Assembly (NCBI GenBank): GCA_030743815.1
Contig: JASLRT010000086.1
Coordinates: 1-51,296, forward strand
DNA: 51,296 nt
DNA from: Candidatus Neomarinimicrobiota bacterium
GTDB lineage: Bacteria; Fidelibacterota; Marinisomatia; Marinisomatales; S15-B10
Reading direction: 5' to 3'
The notes under the pieces were generated by a model, which saw nothing but the letters and a program-made list of their open reading frames with translations, had not been told where the DNA came from and made no database searches. This document shows positions 19,030 through 31,662 of this stretch, one piece after another. Each line of letters begins with the position of its first letter. Position 1 is the first letter of the stretch. The position numbers and the translations under genes are program-made.

Positions 19030-22000
19030 GTGGAAAAACAGGAACGATTCTACAATATCCTCAAGCTGAATAAGCTGTTCGGTATCTCAAGTATCGTCTT
19101 CTTGCTTCTTCTTGTCTGGACATTTGTCGATGACTACGATAGAGACTGGAAGGACTACCAGAGAGAATTTCGTCAGTTGGAGGTTGCCAGTACTAAAGGA
19201 CAGCTTGACGGTGAGCTGGAGAAACTGAACGCTCTCGAAGAATACAAGGAAGCTCAAGGAAACTTAGATGCCGCCGGAAACGCACTAAAGGAAAAAGAAG
19301 ACGATCTGAAAATTTTGGAGAAGCAGCTTAGGAAATTGGAAGCTGAACACTATCAAGTTGAACAGGTATACAATTTCACAAAGGCTGAGTATGATGTGGT
19401 AAAATACGAGCACGAAGAGGCTGTAGGGAGGGGTCACGGTAATCCGGAAGAAACTGGACAGAAATTGGATCGCTATGAAATAGATCTGAATCAGAAACGA
19501 CTCATCGTAGAAGAAGCAGAGCGTCATATGTTTGAGAAACGTGACACGATTCGTTCTCACCGTGAGGAAGTAAAGGAGGCGGACACCCGACTCTCACAGC
19601 TTCGCCGTCAGGCCAGCATCTTAGAACGCAAATTGAGTGTAGTCGATCCGGCGGCCATGAGTTTCGCCAACAGGATTGGCGATAAGGTGCGTGATCTCCC
19701 TGTCCTGGACTTCCTCTCTCCTTATTACAAGGTAGACCAGGTGGTCTTGAAGGATATCACAGAAGATATCAACTTCATGGAGATACCAAAGGTGGACCGG
19801 TGCACCACATGTCACCAAGGGATCACCGAGCCTGGCTATGAAGATGCTTCTCAGCCGTTCACAACCCATCCGGATCTTGCTCTCTATCTTAATAACGATT
19901 CGCCACATCCGCTGGAATCTTTCGGTTGTACCAGCTGCCACGCCGGCCGGGGGAGAGGCACCGATTTCTCCACTGCGGCGCACACTCCCGGCTCTCACGA
20001 GCAAGAAGAGGAGTGGATTGAGAAGTACGACTGGCATGAGATGCACCATTGGGAGCAGCCGATGTTTCCCGTCAAGTACACAGAAGCCGGCTGTTTCAAA
20101 TGCCATTCAAATGAAATTTACATCCGAGGTGCGGACAAACTGAACCTGGGAACGAATCTCGTTGAACGAGCTGGATGTTTCGGGTGCCATACCATCGAGC
20201 GTTACAAGAACAAACGACGGATAGGCCCCGATCTGAATAAGATTTCCTCGAAAGTGAACAAAGATTGGACTTACCTCTGGATAAAAAATCCCAAGTCGTT
20301 TCGTCATAATTCATGGATGCCGGATTTCTTTGGTCTATTTAACAACAGTGATCCAGAATCTGTTGCCAGAACAGATCAGGAAATAAATGCCATTGTGCAC
20401 TACCTATTCAAGAACAGTGGAGACTTTCCGCTTGACAGGATTCCGAGACGTGGAAATTCCGAGCGAGGGGAAGATCTGGTCAACTCTCTTGGATGTCTCG
20501 GCTGCCACAGGGTTGAATCCGAGGCGATTGAAGAAGCGACTACCCTCCAGACATTACGGCTGGATCATGGTCCCAATCTTATTGGGCTAGCTTCTAAAAC
20601 GGAAGCCGAATGGATCTACAGCTGGCTTAGGGAGCCGGAGCGTTACTTCCCGCGGACGAAAATGCCGAATCTGAGACTCTCGGTGACTGAGGCGGCTGAC
20701 ATCACGGCGTATCTCATGACTATGGGCAATGGAGATTTCCTCGAACAGACTGTCCCACCAGTTGATGAAGACCAGATCGATGAGATCACCATGGCTTTTC
20801 TCACTAGAATGTTCTCGGATTACGACTCCAGGCAAAAACTAACGGAAATGACGCTGGAAGATAAACTCGACTATACGGGTGAAAAACTAATCAGGTCTTA
20901 CGGCTGTTTTGGTTGTCACAATATCCCTGGCTTTGAAGAAGAGAAGCCTATCGGGACGGAATTGACCGAAGAGGGGAGCAAGGAAGTCGCAAAACTGGAC
21001 TTTGGCCTTCTGGACATCGAACACAGCCGCAAGGCGTGGTTCACGCAGAAACTTCTGCATCCCCGGAGCTTCGATGAAAACAAAGTAAAAGGCCCTTATG
21101 AGCGTCTTAAGATGCCGGACTTTGAGTTTTCTGAGCAAGAAGTAGAAGCAATTGTCACGGCCATTCTCGGTTTCGTCAAAACGTCTTACGGTGTGAAGCC
21201 GGCAAGATCCGTCAATCCTGATGTTCATATGGGTCAGTGGCTGGTGCGGGAGTACAACTGCCAGGGGTGCCATCTCATTGAACATGACGGAGGAGTTATC
21301 CGTTCCACCATTACACAGTGGCTTATGGATGTGAACGGTATCGGTCATGAAGCGGCCCTGGAGGTTACGGTCGATTTCAGTCCGCCTGACCTTCATACGC
21401 AAGGGGCCAAGACACAGCCGGACTGGCTCTTCGATTTCTTCAAGGAACCGACAACACTCATACGGCCCAATCTCAGGGTACGAATGCCTACATTCTATTT
21501 TGACGATGATGAGTGGAATTCGGTGATTAAATATTTTCAGTTTTTAGATGAAGAGGATAATGCCTACGAATCGCCACACCGGGTGGATACGAAGTCGGTG
21601 CGGTTCAAAGCTGGCAAGAGGCTTCAGGAGAAGGACATGGGTGCGTGCTTCAAGTGTCATTTTTATGGAACGGAGTTTCCCCAGCAAACCCCCGACACGT
21701 GGGCGCCGAATCTGGTCCTGACTAAGGAACGTCTCAGACCGGCATGGGTGATGGAATGGCTTCGTGATCCTCAAAGGATCATGCCGGGAACGAAGATGCC
21801 CGAGCCGTACATTCCCGCGGCAGACGAATTGTTGCAGGATAACGCCGCTAGCATCTTTGGTAGAGAGCTTGTTTCCCTCAAAGGGGACAGTCTATCTATG
21901 CTCTGGGGTTTGACGGATTATCTCTACGCTCTGCCCGGCAAAACTGATATCACTTCAGAGATCAAAAACTTCTTTGCCGAGAACGGCTACCAGCTGTTAA

Positions 22001-22065
22001 AACAGGAAGAGGAAGAAGGCGACGAGTGGGATGAATGGGAAGAAGAAGACGAGTGGGAAGACTAG
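19030..22065 (+). CDS. Octaheme c-type cytochrome with N-terminal membrane anchor and coiled coil
   Basis: The 1011-residue protein has a membrane segment (residues 15-32), a long charged coiled coil (about 40-205), then eight CxxCH heme sites with first Cys near residues 258, 300, 355, 383, 489, 626, 744 and 873. Several MP-containing loops (TKMPNL, KMPDFEF, RMPTFYF, TKMPEPY) look like class I Met ligands, suggesting several fused monoheme domains. The tail is very acidic (DEWDEWEEEDEWED). The start is GTG, 10 nt after subunit IV. By position it replaces cytochrome c1/f as the electron acceptor of the complex. The fold arrangement has no close counterpart that I can name. Confidence 0.9.
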   Translation: MEKQERFYNILKLNKLFGISSIVFLLLLVWTFVDDYDRDWKDYQREFRQLEVASTKGQLDGELEKLNALEEYKEAQGNLDAAGNALKEKEDDLKILEKQLRKLEAEHYQVEQVYNFTKAEYDVVKYEHEEAVGRGHGNPEETGQKLDRYEIDLNQKRLIVEEAERHMFEKRDTIRSHREEVKEADTRLSQLRRQASILERKLSVVDPAAMSFANRIGDKVRDLPVLDFLSPYYKVDQVVLKDITEDINFMEIPKVDRCTTCHQGITEPGYEDASQPFTTHPDLALYLNNDSPHPLESFGCTSCHAGRGRGTDFSTAAHTPGSHEQEEEWIEKYDWHEMHHWEQPMFPVKYTEAGCFKCHSNEIYIRGADKLNLGTNLVERAGCFGCHTIERYKNKRRIGPDLNKISSKVNKDWTYLWIKNPKSFRHNSWMPDFFGLFNNSDPESVARTDQEINAIVHYLFKNSGDFPLDRIPRRGNSERGEDLVNSLGCLGCHRVESEAIEEATTLQTLRLDHGPNLIGLASKTEAEWIYSWLREPERYFPRTKMPNLRLSVTEAADITAYLMTMGNGDFLEQTVPPVDEDQIDEITMAFLTRMFSDYDSRQKLTEMTLEDKLDYTGEKLIRSYGCFGCHNIPGFEEEKPIGTELTEEGSKEVAKLDFGLLDIEHSRKAWFTQKLLHPRSFDENKVKGPYERLKMPDFEFSEQEVEAIVTAILGFVKTSYGVKPARSVNPDVHMGQWLVREYNCQGCHLIEHDGGVIRSTITQWLMDVNGIGHEAALEVTVDFSPPDLHTQGAKTQPDWLFDFFKEPTTLIRPNLRVRMPTFYFDDDEWNSVIKYFQFLDEEDNAYESPHRVDTKSVRFKAGKRLQEKDMGACFKCHFYGTEFPQQTPDTWAPNLVLTKERLRPAWVMEWLRDPQRIMPGTKMPEPYIPAADELLQDNAASIFGRELVSLKGDSLSMLWGLTDYLYALPGKTDITSEIKNFFAENGYQLLKQEEEEGDEWDEWEEEDEWED

Positions 22066-25121: not shown

Positions 25122-26222
25122 ATGAACAGAACGTTCGTGACTCTCCGCTATCCGATCTTTGCCTCCGCATTGGTTGGATTGGTGACAGGCATCTGGGCTG
25201 GTCTAATTCGGATCGGATGGTGGTTCCCTTTCAGTGATCATATCCCCCTTGAAGCTCACGGTCCTCTCATGGTCAGTGGTTTCCTGGGAATCGTTATCGG
25301 ACTCGAGCGTGCCGTTGGCTTGAATCAACAATGGAATTACCTTGCACCCGCACTGACCGGGATCGGCGTACTGGGAGTTATCGTGGGCCTTCCGTTACCT
25401 CTGCCTCATTTGTTGATCACACTCGGTAGTCTGGTTTTTGTACTTATTTCACTGCGAGTTGTCCAGATACGCAGAGCAATGTTTACGGTTACAATGGCGC
25501 TTGGCGCTGTGGCGCTGTATATAGGCAACATGTTGTGGATGCTCGACTATCCGATGTTCAATTCCGTCTACTGGTGGGGTGCTTTTCTTATCCTCACCAT
25601 CGCCGGCGAGCGTCTCGAACTGGCCCGCATCGTACAGGTATCAAAGGTGGGGAGATCTTTGTTTACCGTGGCGGTTGCCATACTCTGTACGGGGCTCATT
25701 ACAGTTTCGTTCGATCCCGAAACGGGGGTCGTGCTGACCGGAGCCAGTATGGCGGGAATCGGTCTGTGGCTCTTGCGCTACGATATGGCTAGGAGGACTG
25801 TGCGTACCACCGGACTCCCGAGGTTTTCAGCCACCAATCTGCTCATAGGTTACGTCTGGCTCTGTGTCAGCGGTTCACTGGCGGTCTGGTCCGGTGCCGT
25901 AGATTCCGGACCCCAGTTCGATGCCATCCTCCATTCGCTGTTTCTCGGCTTTGTCTTTTCTATGATATTCGGTCATGCTCCGATGATTTTCCCGTCACTA
26001 CTTCAGGTTCCCATGCTCTTCCACTGGAGTTTCTACAGTCATGTTGTGCTGTTACATGGTACGCTGCTTTTGCGGGTTGGGGGTGATTTGTCTGGGTGGT
26101 TTAGCGGCCGGTCACTGGGGGGGCTGATGAATGCCGCTGTACTGGCACTCTTCTTTGTAAATACGGCGATTTCTGTCGCCAGAGGGAAGCGGGCAAGGAA
26201 GACCACTTCTCAAAAGGTGTGA
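25122..26222 (+). CDS. Multi-pass membrane protein, possibly NnrS-like
   Basis: The 366-residue protein has about ten to twelve hydrophobic segments. Conserved-looking histidines occur in PLEAHGPLMVSGFLGIVIGLE (residues 43-63) and in ILHSLFLGFVFSMIFGHAPMIFP (residues 268-290), placed inside helices as in heme or copper-binding membrane proteins. The first motif recalls the His-x-Met segment of NnrS (nitric oxide related) proteins, but the match is weak. It is followed by the convergent crp/fnr gene, with an Rrf2 gene beyond. A role in nitrosative or respiratory stress is an inference from this setting. Confidence 0.5.
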   Translation: MNRTFVTLRYPIFASALVGLVTGIWAGLIRIGWWFPFSDHIPLEAHGPLMVSGFLGIVIGLERAVGLNQQWNYLAPALTGIGVLGVIVGLPLPLPHLLITLGSLVFVLISLRVVQIRRAMFTVTMALGAVALYIGNMLWMLDYPMFNSVYWWGAFLILTIAGERLELARIVQVSKVGRSLFTVAVAILCTGLITVSFDPETGVVLTGASMAGIGLWLLRYDMARRTVRTTGLPRFSATNLLIGYVWLCVSGSLAVWSGAVDSGPQFDAILHSLFLGFVFSMIFGHAPMIFPSLLQVPMLFHWSFYSHVVLLHGTLLLRVGGDLSGWFSGRSLGGLMNAAVLALFFVNTAISVARGKRARKTTSQKV

Positions 26223-26993: not shown

Positions 26994-27007
26994 TTGATGA
27001 AAATCAA
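26994..27007. promoter_or_regulatory. FNR-type box, exact TTGAT-N4-ATCAA
   Basis: TTGATGAAAATCAA matches the FNR/DNR consensus perfectly. It lies between the divergent crp/fnr gene (start 26919) and rrf2 gene (start 27115), so it can serve either or both. The Glu and Arg in the regulator's recognition helix fit this site, which suggests autoregulation. The binding factor is inferred. Confidence 0.75.
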
Positions 27008-27020
27008 TTCCCCATTTGAG

Positions 27021-27085
27021 TCATCTCATTGTTTCTCTCCAGAGAATTATTGATTATCCAGAGGCTATTATGACCAATGAGATCA
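27021..27085. promoter_or_regulatory. Inverted repeats upstream of rrf2
   Basis: TCATCTCATTG (27021-27031) is repeated inverted as CAATGAGATCA (27075-27085) with one mismatch. Between them TTCTCT and AGAGAA (27033-27046) form a compact dyad with 2 nt between arms. Dyads of this kind are common operators for dimeric regulators such as Rrf2 proteins. Which protein binds is not known. Confidence 0.35.
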
Positions 27086-27114
27086 CATTAGTAGTCATTC
27101 AGGGGAAGTGAGAG

Positions 27115-27576: not shown

Positions 27577-28428
27577 ATGATGAATAACATTATACTCAGT
27601 TGGAAGAGAAAAGTGAGACGGGGTCTCGATACTATTGTGCGACATGCCTGGGGAATCTGGTTTATGGATCCGCCTGAAGATGTTTCGCTCGACGGTTATC
27701 GGATAGATAATGTGATTCAATACATCGATACCGTGGTAACTATCTACTTCGGCATCGTAGTCCTGGCACTTCTCTATTTTGTTATCAGATACCGTTCCCG
27801 GCCGGGACATAAGGCTGTCTACGATAGAGGGGATACCAAGAAGCATGTCGCTATTACTGTTGCCATGGGACTTCTGGTCTTCTTCTCCATCGATGTAGTC
27901 ATCGAGACTATGTCTTTCAGGGACTTGAAAGAAGCATTCTGGAATTTTCCGACGGGAGACAATGTTGTTCGTGTAGAAATCATGCCGCAGCAGTTTGCCT
28001 GGAATTTTCGCTATCCGGGACCCGATGGCGAGTTCGCCACCGATGATGACATCATTCCCGCTCAAAACCAGATGCATATTCCTGTCAATACACCGGTAGT
28101 GGTTGAGATTGCACCATACGATGTCGTGCACTCCTTTTTTCTCCCCAACTTCCGTGTCAAGATTGATGCCACGCCCGGCAGGACCAATGCTATGTGGTTT
28201 CAGGCGACCAAAACAGGTGTGTTTGAGATAGCATGTGCGGAGTTGTGCGGTAACAGTCATTACAGAATGAAGGGGTATCTTACTGTCCAATCGAGAGAGG
28301 ATTACGACGCCTGGCTGGATGAACTGCGGGCTGAAGCTGAAGAATACGAGGACGAGTGGGAAGACAATGAATTGGTTGAGGAACAGATTCCCACTGATTG
28401 GGGATGGGTCTGGAAGGAGGCTAAGTAA
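27577..28428 (+). CDS. coxB: Cytochrome c oxidase subunit II
   Basis: The start at ATG 27577 is chosen because AAGGA lies 8 nt upstream; the frame extends back to a TTG at 27535. The 283-residue protein has two membrane helices (about residues 38-60 and 80-100) and a periplasmic CuA cupredoxin domain. CuA ligands are in VVHSFFLPNF and CAELCGNSHYRMKG (C-x3-C-x3-H-x2-M). There is no C-terminal cytochrome c domain, so it is not caa3-type. The tail is acidic (EEYEDEWEDNELVEE). It shares one base with coxA (TAATG). Confidence 0.94.
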   Translation: MMNNIILSWKRKVRRGLDTIVRHAWGIWFMDPPEDVSLDGYRIDNVIQYIDTVVTIYFGIVVLALLYFVIRYRSRPGHKAVYDRGDTKKHVAITVAMGLLVFFSIDVVIETMSFRDLKEAFWNFPTGDNVVRVEIMPQQFAWNFRYPGPDGEFATDDDIIPAQNQMHIPVNTPVVVEIAPYDVVHSFFLPNFRVKIDATPGRTNAMWFQATKTGVFEIACAELCGNSHYRMKGYLTVQSREDYDAWLDELRAEAEEYEDEWEDNELVEEQIPTDWGWVWKEAK

Positions 28429-30140
28429 TGGCGACTGAAAATCAATCTTTTTGGGTGAAATATATTTTTTCGACCGATCATAAAGTCATCGGCAAACAGT
28501 TCTTGTGGCTGGGGATATTCTTCCTCTTCTTTGGTGGATATCAAGCCATGTTGATCCGCTGGTCGCTGAGTCACACGATGGAGGCTCTTCCCTGGTGGTT
28601 AACCTTGAAATTGTTATACGGATCCACCGAGGGAATCATAACTCCCGACGGTTACAATCAATTGATAACAATGCACGGGACTATCATGATCTTCTGGGCC
28701 ATAACACCTTTACTGATTGGGGCCTTTGGCAATTTCTGTATCCCGCTGCAGATAGGCGCACCGGACATGGTCTTCCCAAAATTGAACATGCTTTCCTTCT
28801 GGGTATTTTTCCTGTCGGGTGTAGTTGTCCTGGCGTCTTACTTACTGCCTGCCGGCACTGCCGCAGCAGGCTGGACCTCTTATCCGCCGTTGAGCACCCC
28901 GGTCGGAGGCATTCCCGGATTGGGTCAACTGTTCTGGACTCTGGCGATAACACTTATGGGGACGGCTACTTTGATGGGTGCCATCAACTATATTACCACC
29001 ATAGTTCGCTCACGGGCTCCGGGAATGGGATATTTTAAGATGCCCCTGACCGTATGGGGTCTGTTCCTGACCAGCATCCTTAACGCCCTGTTCGTACCCA
29101 TCATTGCGGCGGGACTGATCATATTGCTCCTCGATCAGGCTCTCGGTACTCAGTTCCTTGTTGCCGGCGGAAAAGCGACAGTTCAAGGCGGTGATCCGCT
29201 TCTCTACCAGCACGTCTTCTGGATTTTCGGTCATCCGGAAGTCTATATCCTCATCTTGCCGGCATGGGGTGTTGTCTCTGACTTGTTGGCTGTGTTCGCC
29301 CGCAAGCCTGCCTTTGGTTATAAGGTAACTGCCGTCTGCATGTGTACCATCGTAACATTGAGCGGTATCGTGTGGGGTCATCACATGTATACATCGGGTA
29401 TGAGCCCTCTGCTGGGCAAAGCGTTCATGTTTCTTACACTACTGATAAGCATCCCATCTTCCATATTTTTCCTAAACTGGCTCGGCACTCTGTGGCGGGG
29501 TAATCTCAAATTCGAAACGCCTATGCTGTTCGCCATGTCAGTCATGTGGGTATTTGCACTTGGCGGTTTGACAGGGCTGTATAATGCGACAATTACCTCA
29601 GACCTGTATGTGCACGATTCCTATTTCGTTGTTGGCCATTTTCACTATACCATGGCCGCATCGGTACTGTTTGCCGGTATGGCTGCAATCTACTACTGGT
29701 TCCCCAAGATGTTTGGCAAGACGATGAATCCGCTGCTGGGCAAGATACATTTCTGGCTGTCGTTTGTCCCTCTGAATCTGGTCTTCTTCAATATGATGGT
29801 GATGGGATATGCGGGACATCATCGCCGCTTATTCGATCCCAGCGAATATGATTTCTTAGCGCCCGTTTTAGGCCTGAACGAATTCATGACCTGGTCAGCC
29901 TTTGTCCTCGGTGCGGGGCAGCTGTTCTTTCTCTACAATTTCATCGATAGCTTAGTCCGCGGTGAAAAGGCTGAGAAAAATCCGTGGCAAGCCGCCACGC
30001 TGGAGTGGACGGTGGATGCACCGATCCCCCACGGAAATTATGCCGTTGTTCCTACGGTGCACAATGGACCGCACGAGTACAGCAATCCAAAAGTAACCGA
30101 TAGAGACTGGATAGCTCAATCTGAGCCTATTCCCGGCTAG
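28428..30140 (+). CDS. coxA: Cytochrome c oxidase subunit I
   Basis: The 570-residue catalytic subunit has twelve predicted helices. Ligands are in MHGTIMIFW (low-spin heme), GHPEVYILILPAWG (CuB His cross-linked Tyr, and the Glu of A1-type proton channels), WGHHMYTSG (CuB His pair) and VVGHFHYTMAAS (heme a3 and heme a His). The GAPDMVFPKLN segment is typical. It reduces oxygen to water and pumps protons. A-type heme use agrees with the CtaA-CtaB fusion upstream. Confidence 0.97.
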   Translation: MATENQSFWVKYIFSTDHKVIGKQFLWLGIFFLFFGGYQAMLIRWSLSHTMEALPWWLTLKLLYGSTEGIITPDGYNQLITMHGTIMIFWAITPLLIGAFGNFCIPLQIGAPDMVFPKLNMLSFWVFFLSGVVVLASYLLPAGTAAAGWTSYPPLSTPVGGIPGLGQLFWTLAITLMGTATLMGAINYITTIVRSRAPGMGYFKMPLTVWGLFLTSILNALFVPIIAAGLIILLLDQALGTQFLVAGGKATVQGGDPLLYQHVFWIFGHPEVYILILPAWGVVSDLLAVFARKPAFGYKVTAVCMCTIVTLSGIVWGHHMYTSGMSPLLGKAFMFLTLLISIPSSIFFLNWLGTLWRGNLKFETPMLFAMSVMWVFALGGLTGLYNATITSDLYVHDSYFVVGHFHYTMAASVLFAGMAAIYYWFPKMFGKTMNPLLGKIHFWLSFVPLNLVFFNMMVMGYAGHHRRLFDPSEYDFLAPVLGLNEFMTWSAFVLGAGQLFFLYNFIDSLVRGEKAEKNPWQAATLEWTVDAPIPHGNYAVVPTVHNGPHEYSNPKVTDRDWIAQSEPIPG

Positions 30141-30158: not shown

Positions 30159-30749
30159 TTGACGACCTCCCATACGTTGGCTCAAGATAACAGAGAAGAT
30201 CAGTTTACTTCTTACTTCGGGATGCTGATTGCATTGGGATCCTGGGCCATGCTGTTTATCGCACTGTTTGCCAGTTACGGTATCATCAGGGTGCAAGCGG
30301 AGAACTGGGTATCACCGGCTTCAGATCCTTCGTCACTTCTTCTGGCTGCCATCAATACAGGAATTATTCTGATGAGCAGCTGGACCTATTATAGAGGTTA
30401 CCGTGCCATTCTATCAGGAAACCTGTATTCGCTCAAGAACTGGCTTGTGATAACGATTATTGTGGGTGCCGGATTCCTGGTCATGCAGTTGAACCTGTGG
30501 CAATTGTTGACCCGGCGCGGATTTACCGCAACCTCACTGATCGAAGGTTCCGTGTTTTATATGTTATCAGGCTTGCACGGTATACACATCATTGGCGGTC
30601 TTGCTGCAGTTGTCTGGCTGCTGTGGAAAGTAACCAGACAGGCGATTAATACTCCCGGGCAATCCTTACCGGTCAGGCTGGTCGGACTATTCTGGCATTT
30701 CCTGACGGTTGTCTGGATTGCTCTATTCATCGCCGTTTTCATCATCTGA
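30159..30749 (+). CDS. coxC: Cytochrome c oxidase subunit III (first copy)
   Basis: The 196-residue protein has five helices, the short form of subunit III. Typical positions are GSVFYMLSGLHGIHIIGGL (residues 129-147) and LVGLFWHFLTVVWIALF (C-terminal helix). It uses a TTG start at 30159; GGAG at 30145-30148 supports it, 10 nt before. It stabilises the subunit I core. The next gene codes for a second, clearly different subunit III of the same length. Confidence 0.88.
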   Translation: MTTSHTLAQDNREDQFTSYFGMLIALGSWAMLFIALFASYGIIRVQAENWVSPASDPSSLLLAAINTGIILMSSWTYYRGYRAILSGNLYSLKNWLVITIIVGAGFLVMQLNLWQLLTRRGFTATSLIEGSVFYMLSGLHGIHIIGGLAAVVWLLWKVTRQAINTPGQSLPVRLVGLFWHFLTVVWIALFIAVFII

Positions 30750-30775: not shown

Positions 30776-31363
30776 ATGACTCAAGCACAGGCATTAGCAG
30801 TATCTGATCCATTTGGAAAAGCGACAACCGGAAAGCTGGGGATGTGGCTTTTCATCATCATAGACGGTCTCTCTTTTGCTGGATTATTGATCGGTGGCGC
30901 CGCACTACGGTCCGGTGGGGCGGATTGGCCACAAGCCGGTGAAATCCTGAATATCCCGCTGACAGCTTTCAATACGTTCCTGCTCATCTGTACCAGTTTT
31001 ACCATGGTGATGGCCCTCAACTCCATCCAGAAAGGAGACCAGGCGGGGTTAAAGAAATTCCTGACCCTTACCATGGCAGGAGGACTGGTATTCCTGGGAA
31101 TCCAGGTGTGGGAATATGTCCATTTCATTACAGACGGATTTATACCCAGTACCAGCATTTATGCGGCTGTGTTCTATGTGACCACCGGCTTCCACGGGCT
31201 GCATGTCACCTCGGGTGTGATATATATCGCCTGTATTCTCTGGGCAGCAAACCAGGGGCGCTATTCAGCCGATAACTGGGATCATGTGGAAATTCTGGGC
31301 CTTTTCTGGCACTTTGTCGATCTGATCTGGATTTTCGTCTTTACAGTGATTTACCTCATCTAA
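30776..31363 (+). CDS. coxC: Cytochrome c oxidase subunit III (second copy)
   Basis: The 195-residue protein has five helices. It opens GKLGMWLFIIIDGLSFAGLL, and has QVWEYVHFITDG (the E of the EY motif) and AVFYVTTGFHGLHVTSGV, then LGLFWHFVDLIWIFVF, all subunit III landmarks. AAGGAGA lies before the ATG. It is more standard than the preceding copy, as it keeps the E-Y-x-H segment that the first lacks. The pair may correspond to two halves or two roles in the oxidase. Confidence 0.92.
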   Translation: MTQAQALAVSDPFGKATTGKLGMWLFIIIDGLSFAGLLIGGAALRSGGADWPQAGEILNIPLTAFNTFLLICTSFTMVMALNSIQKGDQAGLKKFLTLTMAGGLVFLGIQVWEYVHFITDGFIPSTSIYAAVFYVTTGFHGLHVTSGVIYIACILWAANQGRYSADNWDHVEILGLFWHFVDLIWIFVFTVIYLI

Positions 31364-31380: not shown

Positions 31381-31662
31381 ATGAGTGATGCTCATAAGAA
31401 AACTTATCTACAGAACGCCATCTGGCTGGCCGTATTGACTGTTCTAGAACTGGGGGTTATAAACCTGTCAATACCCAGAATGGGACAGATAGTTTTGCTG
31501 TTTGCATTTGCGGCCACCAAAATGATGCTCGTGGCGATGGTCTATATGCATCTGCGTTACGAGACAAAGGTGCTGAGAAGGATTCTGTTCATACCGATAC
31601 CGGCGGGTATCATCTTTGCCTGGGCGCTGATGTATGACCTACCGTTCCGGTGGGTAATGTAA
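31381..31662 (+). CDS. Cytochrome c oxidase subunit IV (prokaryotic, CtaF-like)
   Basis: The 93-residue protein has three membrane helices, the usual form of the small bacterial subunit IV. ATKMMLVAMVYMHLRYETKVLR (residues 43-64) is the family's best-conserved segment. GGGAGGCGAAT precedes the ATG. It is an accessory subunit needed for assembly or stability. It follows the second subunit III by 17 nt. Confidence 0.9.
   Translation: MSDAHKKTYLQNAIWLAVLTVLELGVINLSIPRMGQIVLLFAFAATKMMLVAMVYMHLRYETKVLRRILFIPIPAGIIFAWALMYDLPFRWVM

Follow-up and report, generated by a model that had tools for sequence, protein, structure and literature searches.

The DNA examined here, referred to below as the window (51,296 bp), belongs to a Candidatus Marinimicrobia MAG (2.1 Mb, 123 contigs, 96.9% complete) from a phylum described in PMC5688066 as abundant and studied along marine energy gradients. 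In this window a crp/fnr gene and an rrf2 gene are divergently arranged, and rrf2 is followed by genes for a cytochrome c oxidase. A spacer of 195 bp separates the crp/fnr start codon (26919, minus strand) from that of rrf2 (27115, plus strand), and the question raised by the locus is whether this spacer serves one regulator or both, and whether the cox genes are controlled from it. The features discussed below are collected in Table 1.

Table 1. Features of the crp/fnr–rrf2–cox locus, in positions of the window
Feature	Position	Strand	Basis or remark
Crp/Fnr-family regulator, 230 aa, C3/C6/C52/C105	26227..26919	-	Pfam cNMP_binding, HTH_Crp_2
Site 1, Crp/Fnr-type palindrome TTGATGAAAATCAA	26994..27007	.	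Exact match and conservation
Site 2, degenerate copy TTGAGTCATCTCAT, core TGAN6TCA	27016..27029	.	
Probable Rrf2 operator TATTATGACCAATGAGATCACATTA	27066..27090	+	Overlaps possible -10 TATTAT, 27066-27071
Rrf2-family regulator, 138 aa, C92-x6-C99-x5-C105	27115..27531	+	Pfam Rrf2, 1.4e-36
coxB, cytochrome c oxidase subunit II	27580..28428	+	Pfam COX2; ORF open from 27535
coxA, subunit I	28428..30140	+	Pfam COX1, 5.8e-137
coxC-like, subunit III	30159..30749	+	Pfam COX3
Second coxC-like, subunit III	30776..31363	+	Pfam COX3
coxD, subunit IV	31381..31662	+	Pfam COX4_pro

An earlier reading of the sequence alone (the sequence-only reading) had placed an exact FNR-type consensus in this spacer, and this was confirmed, site 1 being the sole TTGATN4ATCAA without a mismatch in the window. 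In dinucleotide Markov simulations the exact site was contained in 0.14% of 195-bp spacers, a figure uncorrected for the fact that the reader was free to pick both motif and location, and TTGAYN4RTCAA was contained in 0.28% of simulated spacers of the same length and make-up. The same reading named lack of conservation in relatives as a refutation; the site was found to be kept in all intact relatives. Of the 130 genomes from the order, just 6 encode an orthologue of the Crp/Fnr protein, defined at E <= 1e-40; for the phylum the count is 9 out of 245. At five of the six loci in the order (window, G051, G034, G049 and G106, the last being NIOZ-UU73 and the same locus as L043) crp/fnr is divergent from rrf2 with cox genes following, and TTGAYN4RTCAA was observed in every genome in which this layout is intact (5/5). 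When these five loci were anchored on the palindrome, mean pairwise identity was 91% within the 14 bp of site 1, falling to 37% across the 44 columns on the left and to 40% across a 30-column stretch on the right. In G034 site 1 has the form TTGACAAAAGTCAA, in which both halves have changed in step (TTGAC..GTCAA). The crp/fnr match in G015, the sixth genome of the order, covers residues 87-230 only, its first part having been lost, and no site is present; this genome was left out of the counts of intact loci and, if included, eight of the nine phylum-wide matches carry the site. At this G015 locus (L040, G015:C98, 5037-5468 and 5897-6304), where only the last 144 crp/fnr residues remain, there is an ORF on the far side of the break which appears integrase-like on inspection and has no match in PHROGs; a search gave no close rrf2 orthologue in this genome.

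Three genomes of another order (G188, G189, G191) carry TTGAYN4RTCAA just 5' of crp/fnr (3/3), and their ORF listing shows no rrf2-cox operon adjoining that gene. Since the G191 palindrome lies 28 nt inside the longest open frame, the true start of that gene and the position of the site relative to its start codon are unsure; G191 also has a COX1-like fragment of 150 aa which is under the Pfam cut-off. In G103, G105 and G017, where rrf2-cox is intact and there is no crp/fnr orthologue, TTGAN6TCAA was found nowhere in the fetched loci. Site 1 is thus retained without rrf2-cox (3/3) and absent without crp/fnr (3/3), indicating that it goes with the crp/fnr gene. G011, which has no crp/fnr and a broken rrf2, was left out of the second count; at 169 bp upstream it bears the related word TTGAGTTATGTCAA. 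A wider set of 51 non-redundant homologues was scanned for WTGAYN4RTCAW over the 200 bp upstream of each gene. The word was present in 14, whereas 500 dinucleotide shuffles yielded 0.39 on average and never more than 3; given the start codons chosen, the other 37 have no such word upstream. In this set the near-identical G188 and G189 were counted as one, and G191 was scored as site-less through its chosen start codon. Outside Marinimicrobia the upstream palindrome has the form ATGAYN4RTCAT.

Two further elements of the spacer had been missed by the sequence-only reading, which was right about site 1. Site 2 is centred 22 bp from the centre of site 1, toward rrf2. Its TGAN6TCA core is present in three of the five loci (window, L004, L043) and its right half, TCATT, in all five; in L004 and L043 it has the ATGAYN4RTCAT form at the same distance of 22 bp. 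Closer to rrf2 all eight intact rrf2 loci, with and without crp/fnr, share an inverted repeat, AATATGAYT-N5-ARTCATATT, which varies in how perfect it is and begins 49-75 bp before the rrf2 start codon. The symmetry of the repeat extends to 11 of 12 pairs in G105 (AAATATGACTAACATAGTCATATTT) and 10 of 12 in G103 and is weak in the window (7/12, P 0.04) and in G051 (6/12, P 0.13); the window's own repeat was absent among the matches of a consensus search with three mismatches. Among the matches listed at up to three mismatches in G103 and G105, the sole perfect copies are at rrf2, and in G011 a degenerate repeat persists upstream of the broken gene. The inverted repeat is linked to the rrf2 gene. 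The G011 gene itself (L144, G011:C6, 1501-1950) is a pseudogene, interrupted by a frameshift and in-frame stops, and lies ahead of ctaB/coxB-like genes. The GACT-N5-AGTC core of the repeat also occurs upstream of E. coli iscR, in what we take to be a type 1 IscR site. The NsrR motif ATGyAT-N5-ATrCAT, as given in the available part of PMC1274295, has a spacing equal to that of the repeat. On these grounds the repeat is most likely the operator of the Rrf2 protein.

The Rrf2 protein, one of three encoded by the genome, scored 126 bits against PF02082 (cut-off 30), and its three cysteines, C92, C99 and C105, which are invariant together with the Glu at position 8 (5/5), fit those of Fe-S members of the family. 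Assignment to IscR, RirA or NsrR was rejected, as the scores were 82.6, 81.4 and 58.8 bits against NCBIfam cut-offs of 207.55, 193 and 182, respectively. The genes which follow rrf2 are, in order, coxB, coxA, two coxC-like genes, coxD and SCO genes. No terminator-like site was found between rrf2 and coxB, and the gene order suggests that the cox operon would be controlled by the regulators acting in the spacer. On the other side of the locus, a 366-aa membrane protein (25122-26222) with no Pfam or NCBIfam match, possibly NnrS-like by eye, ends 4 bp from the stop codon of the convergent crp/fnr gene, and 19030-22065 encodes a protein of 1011 aa whose start resembles a coiled coil and which has several domains of the cytochrome c and FixO types. 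At four Marinimicrobia loci (L041, L042, L043, L102) crp/fnr lies between the divergent rrf2-cox genes and a second, convergent coxB/coxA set.

Because site 1 tracks crp/fnr and the repeat is kept at 8/8 rrf2 loci, we consider it likely that the spacer is a control region shared by two regulators, with Crp/Fnr acting at sites 1 and 2 and Rrf2 at the repeat, jointly on rrf2-cox. The Crp/Fnr protein would bind site 1 and, with lower affinity, site 2, which is two helical turns from it. Once bound, the protein would control both its own gene and, from upstream, the divergent rrf2-cox genes. Such self and divergent control had been proposed in the sequence-only reading, and the conservation of site 1 and its linkage to crp/fnr speak for it. 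The Rrf2 protein, bound to the repeat over its own promoter, would keep its own gene and the cox genes repressed, with relief on loss or alteration of its Fe-S cluster. Here we infer which protein occupies which site, the signal to which each responds, and the sign of each effect (activation by Crp/Fnr, repression by Rrf2). If TATTAT is the -10 element of rrf2-cox, the centres of sites 1 and 2 would fall near -78 and -56, respectively. A promoter scan of the region returned no sigma-70-like promoter; these positions therefore do not reveal the sign of control, and sign and positions alike are conjecture. With redox sensing by Crp/Fnr and a cluster on Rrf2, the cox operon is proposed to read two redox inputs. 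If this reading holds, the adjustment of Marinimicrobia respiration to O2 becomes testable in vitro with two named proteins and three DNA sites.

The main competing explanation is that site 1 serves crp/fnr autoregulation only, that Rrf2 alone controls the cox genes, and that the spacer is shared only as a consequence of how the genes are arranged. The retention of site 1 in G188, G189 and G191, the presence of rrf2-cox without it in G103, G105 and G017, and the distance of its centre from the crp/fnr start codon (51-81 bp, near enough for autoregulation) are all in line with this. We nevertheless regard it as unlikely, as it leaves unexplained why a conserved site 2 lies toward rrf2 at an invariant distance of 22 bp and why the spacing between site 1 and the Rrf2 repeat is nearly constant (65.5-67.5 bp). 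In Winogradskyella, moreover, a similar site is found upstream of crp/fnr, and there ccoI-ccoN are divergent from that gene; in Chitinophaga ccoI and ccoN lie 3' of it. Over 58 homologous loci, a terminal-oxidase subunit gene was found near 22, and an oxidase subunit gene or ccoI near 24, counts which refer to flanks of up to 6 kb (short for some loci) and have no background rate beside them.

The fold of the Crp/Fnr protein, a cNMP-type roll with a winged HTH, was indicated by Pfam, by an AlphaFold2 model (mean pLDDT 89.9) and by Foldseek, in which the model matched structures of both CRP and FNR, the best PDB neighbours being cAMP-binding CRPs. In the recognition helix T191, E192 and R196 occupy CRP positions 180, 181 and 185. 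The Glu and Arg said in the sequence-only reading to read TTGAT are thus in place, and V195 stands where FNR has Ser. In the available part of PMC1274295, Arg180 of CRP is tied to G and Glu181 to A in the site, and TTGA-type recognition goes with no Arg at 180, Glu at 181 and Arg at 185, the combination found here. One other protein of the genome is over the HTH_Crp_2 cut-off and has Arg-Glu at 180/181; this published code predicts TTGA as the target of the window protein and TGTGA as that of the other.

The sequence-only reading had noted two N-terminal cysteines and suggested that the sensor may differ from true FNR. C3 and C6 are indeed its two N-terminal cysteines, the two further conserved cysteines C52 and C105 had gone unmentioned, and the suggested difference is both supported and sharpened. 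All four cysteines are present in 52/52 homologues with an N-terminal CxxC, from the FCB group and other phyla. These 52 were drawn from 55 proteins over 170 bits, the remaining three being the truncated G015 gene and L084 and L093, which lack the CxxC; three low-scoring proteins also bear all four cysteines. The ligands of FNR are C20, C23, C29 and C122 according to the available part of PMC4214427. C3, C6 and C105 fit Cys20, Cys23 and Cys122, while the Cys29 position has no cysteine and C52 aligns with an FNR alanine; a third N-terminal cysteine is present in 32/52 homologues and in none of the five from Marinimicrobia. The strands carrying C52 and C105 are presumably neighbours, by jelly-roll topology. 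C3, C6, C52 and C105, with C52 as an added ligand, may hold a cluster, or they may form disulfides; in either case the probable signal is O2 or the redox state (or else NO). Judged by its sequence, the protein is FNR-like. The missing Cys29 ligand, a score of 78.7 bits against the NCBIfam FNR model PRK11161 (cut-off 228) and a site set which is not that of a global regulon (see below) led us to reject canonical FNR, and the protein was not filed under that name.

We think it doubtful that the protein responds instead to a small ligand, to heme or through pure thiol-disulfide switching, and is no FNR-like cluster sensor. The missed FNR cut-off, the CRPs among the closest structures and the absence of a third N-terminal cysteine from 20/52 homologues, the window protein included, are what such a sensor would lead one to expect, whereas the invariance of four cysteines which include the FNR C122 equivalent is not. 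The family profile likewise ranks A. fischeri FNR (1e-42) over M. tuberculosis CRP (6e-37); its best PDB match is P. gingivalis 2gau (1e-50), which has no cysteine at the C52 and C105 columns.

More tentatively, and as a possibility to which we would not yet commit, the homologues may form a distinct redox-sensing class of Crp/Fnr regulators, an 'FNR of the FCB group', with a cluster held by the CxxC and the beta-roll pair C52/C105 as against the 3+1 arrangement of FNR, and with terminal oxidases under its control. In Marinimicrobia a member of this class would face an Fe-S Rrf2 repressor across a single spacer, and the two cluster sensors would jointly set the level of cytochrome oxidase. The homologues are spread over Marinimicrobia, Ignavibacteria, Bacteroidota and Calditrichota. 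At 11 loci of the Ignavibacteria group (L045, L047-L055, L061) a second Crp-like gene and a UspA-like gene come after the one for the four-cysteine regulator. Literature searches gave no description of the layout or of the cysteine class, which is weak evidence as subscription journals were mostly uncovered.

The genome contains seven exact copies of TTGATN4ATCAA, against none for a reversed control pattern, six of them within ORFs, and 15 TTGAYN4RTCAA sites, against five for the control, 12 of them within ORFs. The presence of the word in the genome is unremarkable; it is the intergenic position and the conservation of site 1 which are remarkable. That site 1 is a chance word, chosen by its reader for its match to a textbook motif, is in keeping with a copy number little above the base-composition expectation (a rough estimate) and is very improbable in view of its retention in 8/8 intact orthologues, its absence from 3/3 intact rrf2-cox loci without crp/fnr, and a P of 0.0014 for the 195-bp spacer alone.

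Genome-wide, intergenic TTGAYN4RTCAA was observed only in this spacer and in one CO-dehydrogenase promoter. Because the exact FNR box occurs elsewhere only inside genes, the regulon looks local, and a global FNR regulon in this genome was rejected. The genome-wide scan of this motif, which the sequence-only reading had proposed in the expectation of further respiratory genes, thus gave no support to an FNR-box regulon, although its proposals of self and divergent control and of a differing sensor stood. The relatives gave a similar picture, since in G049, G106, G034, G051 and G015 16 of 18 ATTGAYN4RTCAAT sites outside crp/fnr spacers lie in ORFs, a tally which leaves out 10 sites in G001, G003 and G016. 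The CO dehydrogenase operon is a possible second target. Two TTGAYN4RTCAA sites 46 bp apart (G000:C40, 20697-20756; L225, 3198-3257) precede coxG (PF06240) at a contig end, the second lying at the first possible start codon of the frame and upstream of the Pfam match. In G005, the closest relative with coxG and without a crp/fnr orthologue, each palindrome is altered by one base; the surroundings of the promoter are conserved too in this comparison, and the base change may have gone in either direction. In G188, G189 and G001 coxG gave weak or broken matches, and the regions upstream of these were excluded.

Among known systems, FNR of E. coli and A. fischeri is a [4Fe-4S] sensor of O2. The Crp/Fnr protein described here shares with it the fold, the Glu and Arg of the recognition helix, the N-terminal CxxC and the alignment of C105 with C122, and site 1 matches exactly the FNR box quoted in the available part of PMC1274295. 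It differs in lacking the C29 ligand and in having an invariant C52 where FNR has Ala, and its site set is local whereas FNR has many intergenic sites and a global regulon. HcpR, DNR and NnrR are NO-linked Crp/Fnr regulators, with TTGACN4GTCAA as the site of HcpR and TTGATN4ATCAA as that of DNR. The site class is the same here, G034 showing the TTGAC..GTCAA form, but the present locus is linked to terminal oxidases and has the cysteine tetrad, and no hcp or denitrification gene was identified among the neighbours examined. IscR, NsrR and RirA are Fe-S repressors of the Rrf2 family. The Rrf2 protein of the window resembles them in its domain, its three cysteines and the GACT-N5-AGTC core found also at iscR, but is far under their cut-offs and precedes a cox operon, not isc or suf genes. 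In the available part of PMC8510549 (2021), carbon-sensing MalR-like CRP/FNR homologues were predicted in Ignavibacteria and Flavobacteriales MAGs, and FNR was named solely in Nitrosomonas and Rhodocyclaceae; those homologues and the class considered here occur in the same phyla. If the class is real, its non-FNR cysteine set would mark an FNR-like regulator of O2 or redox response for phyla in which that part of PMC8510549 named none.
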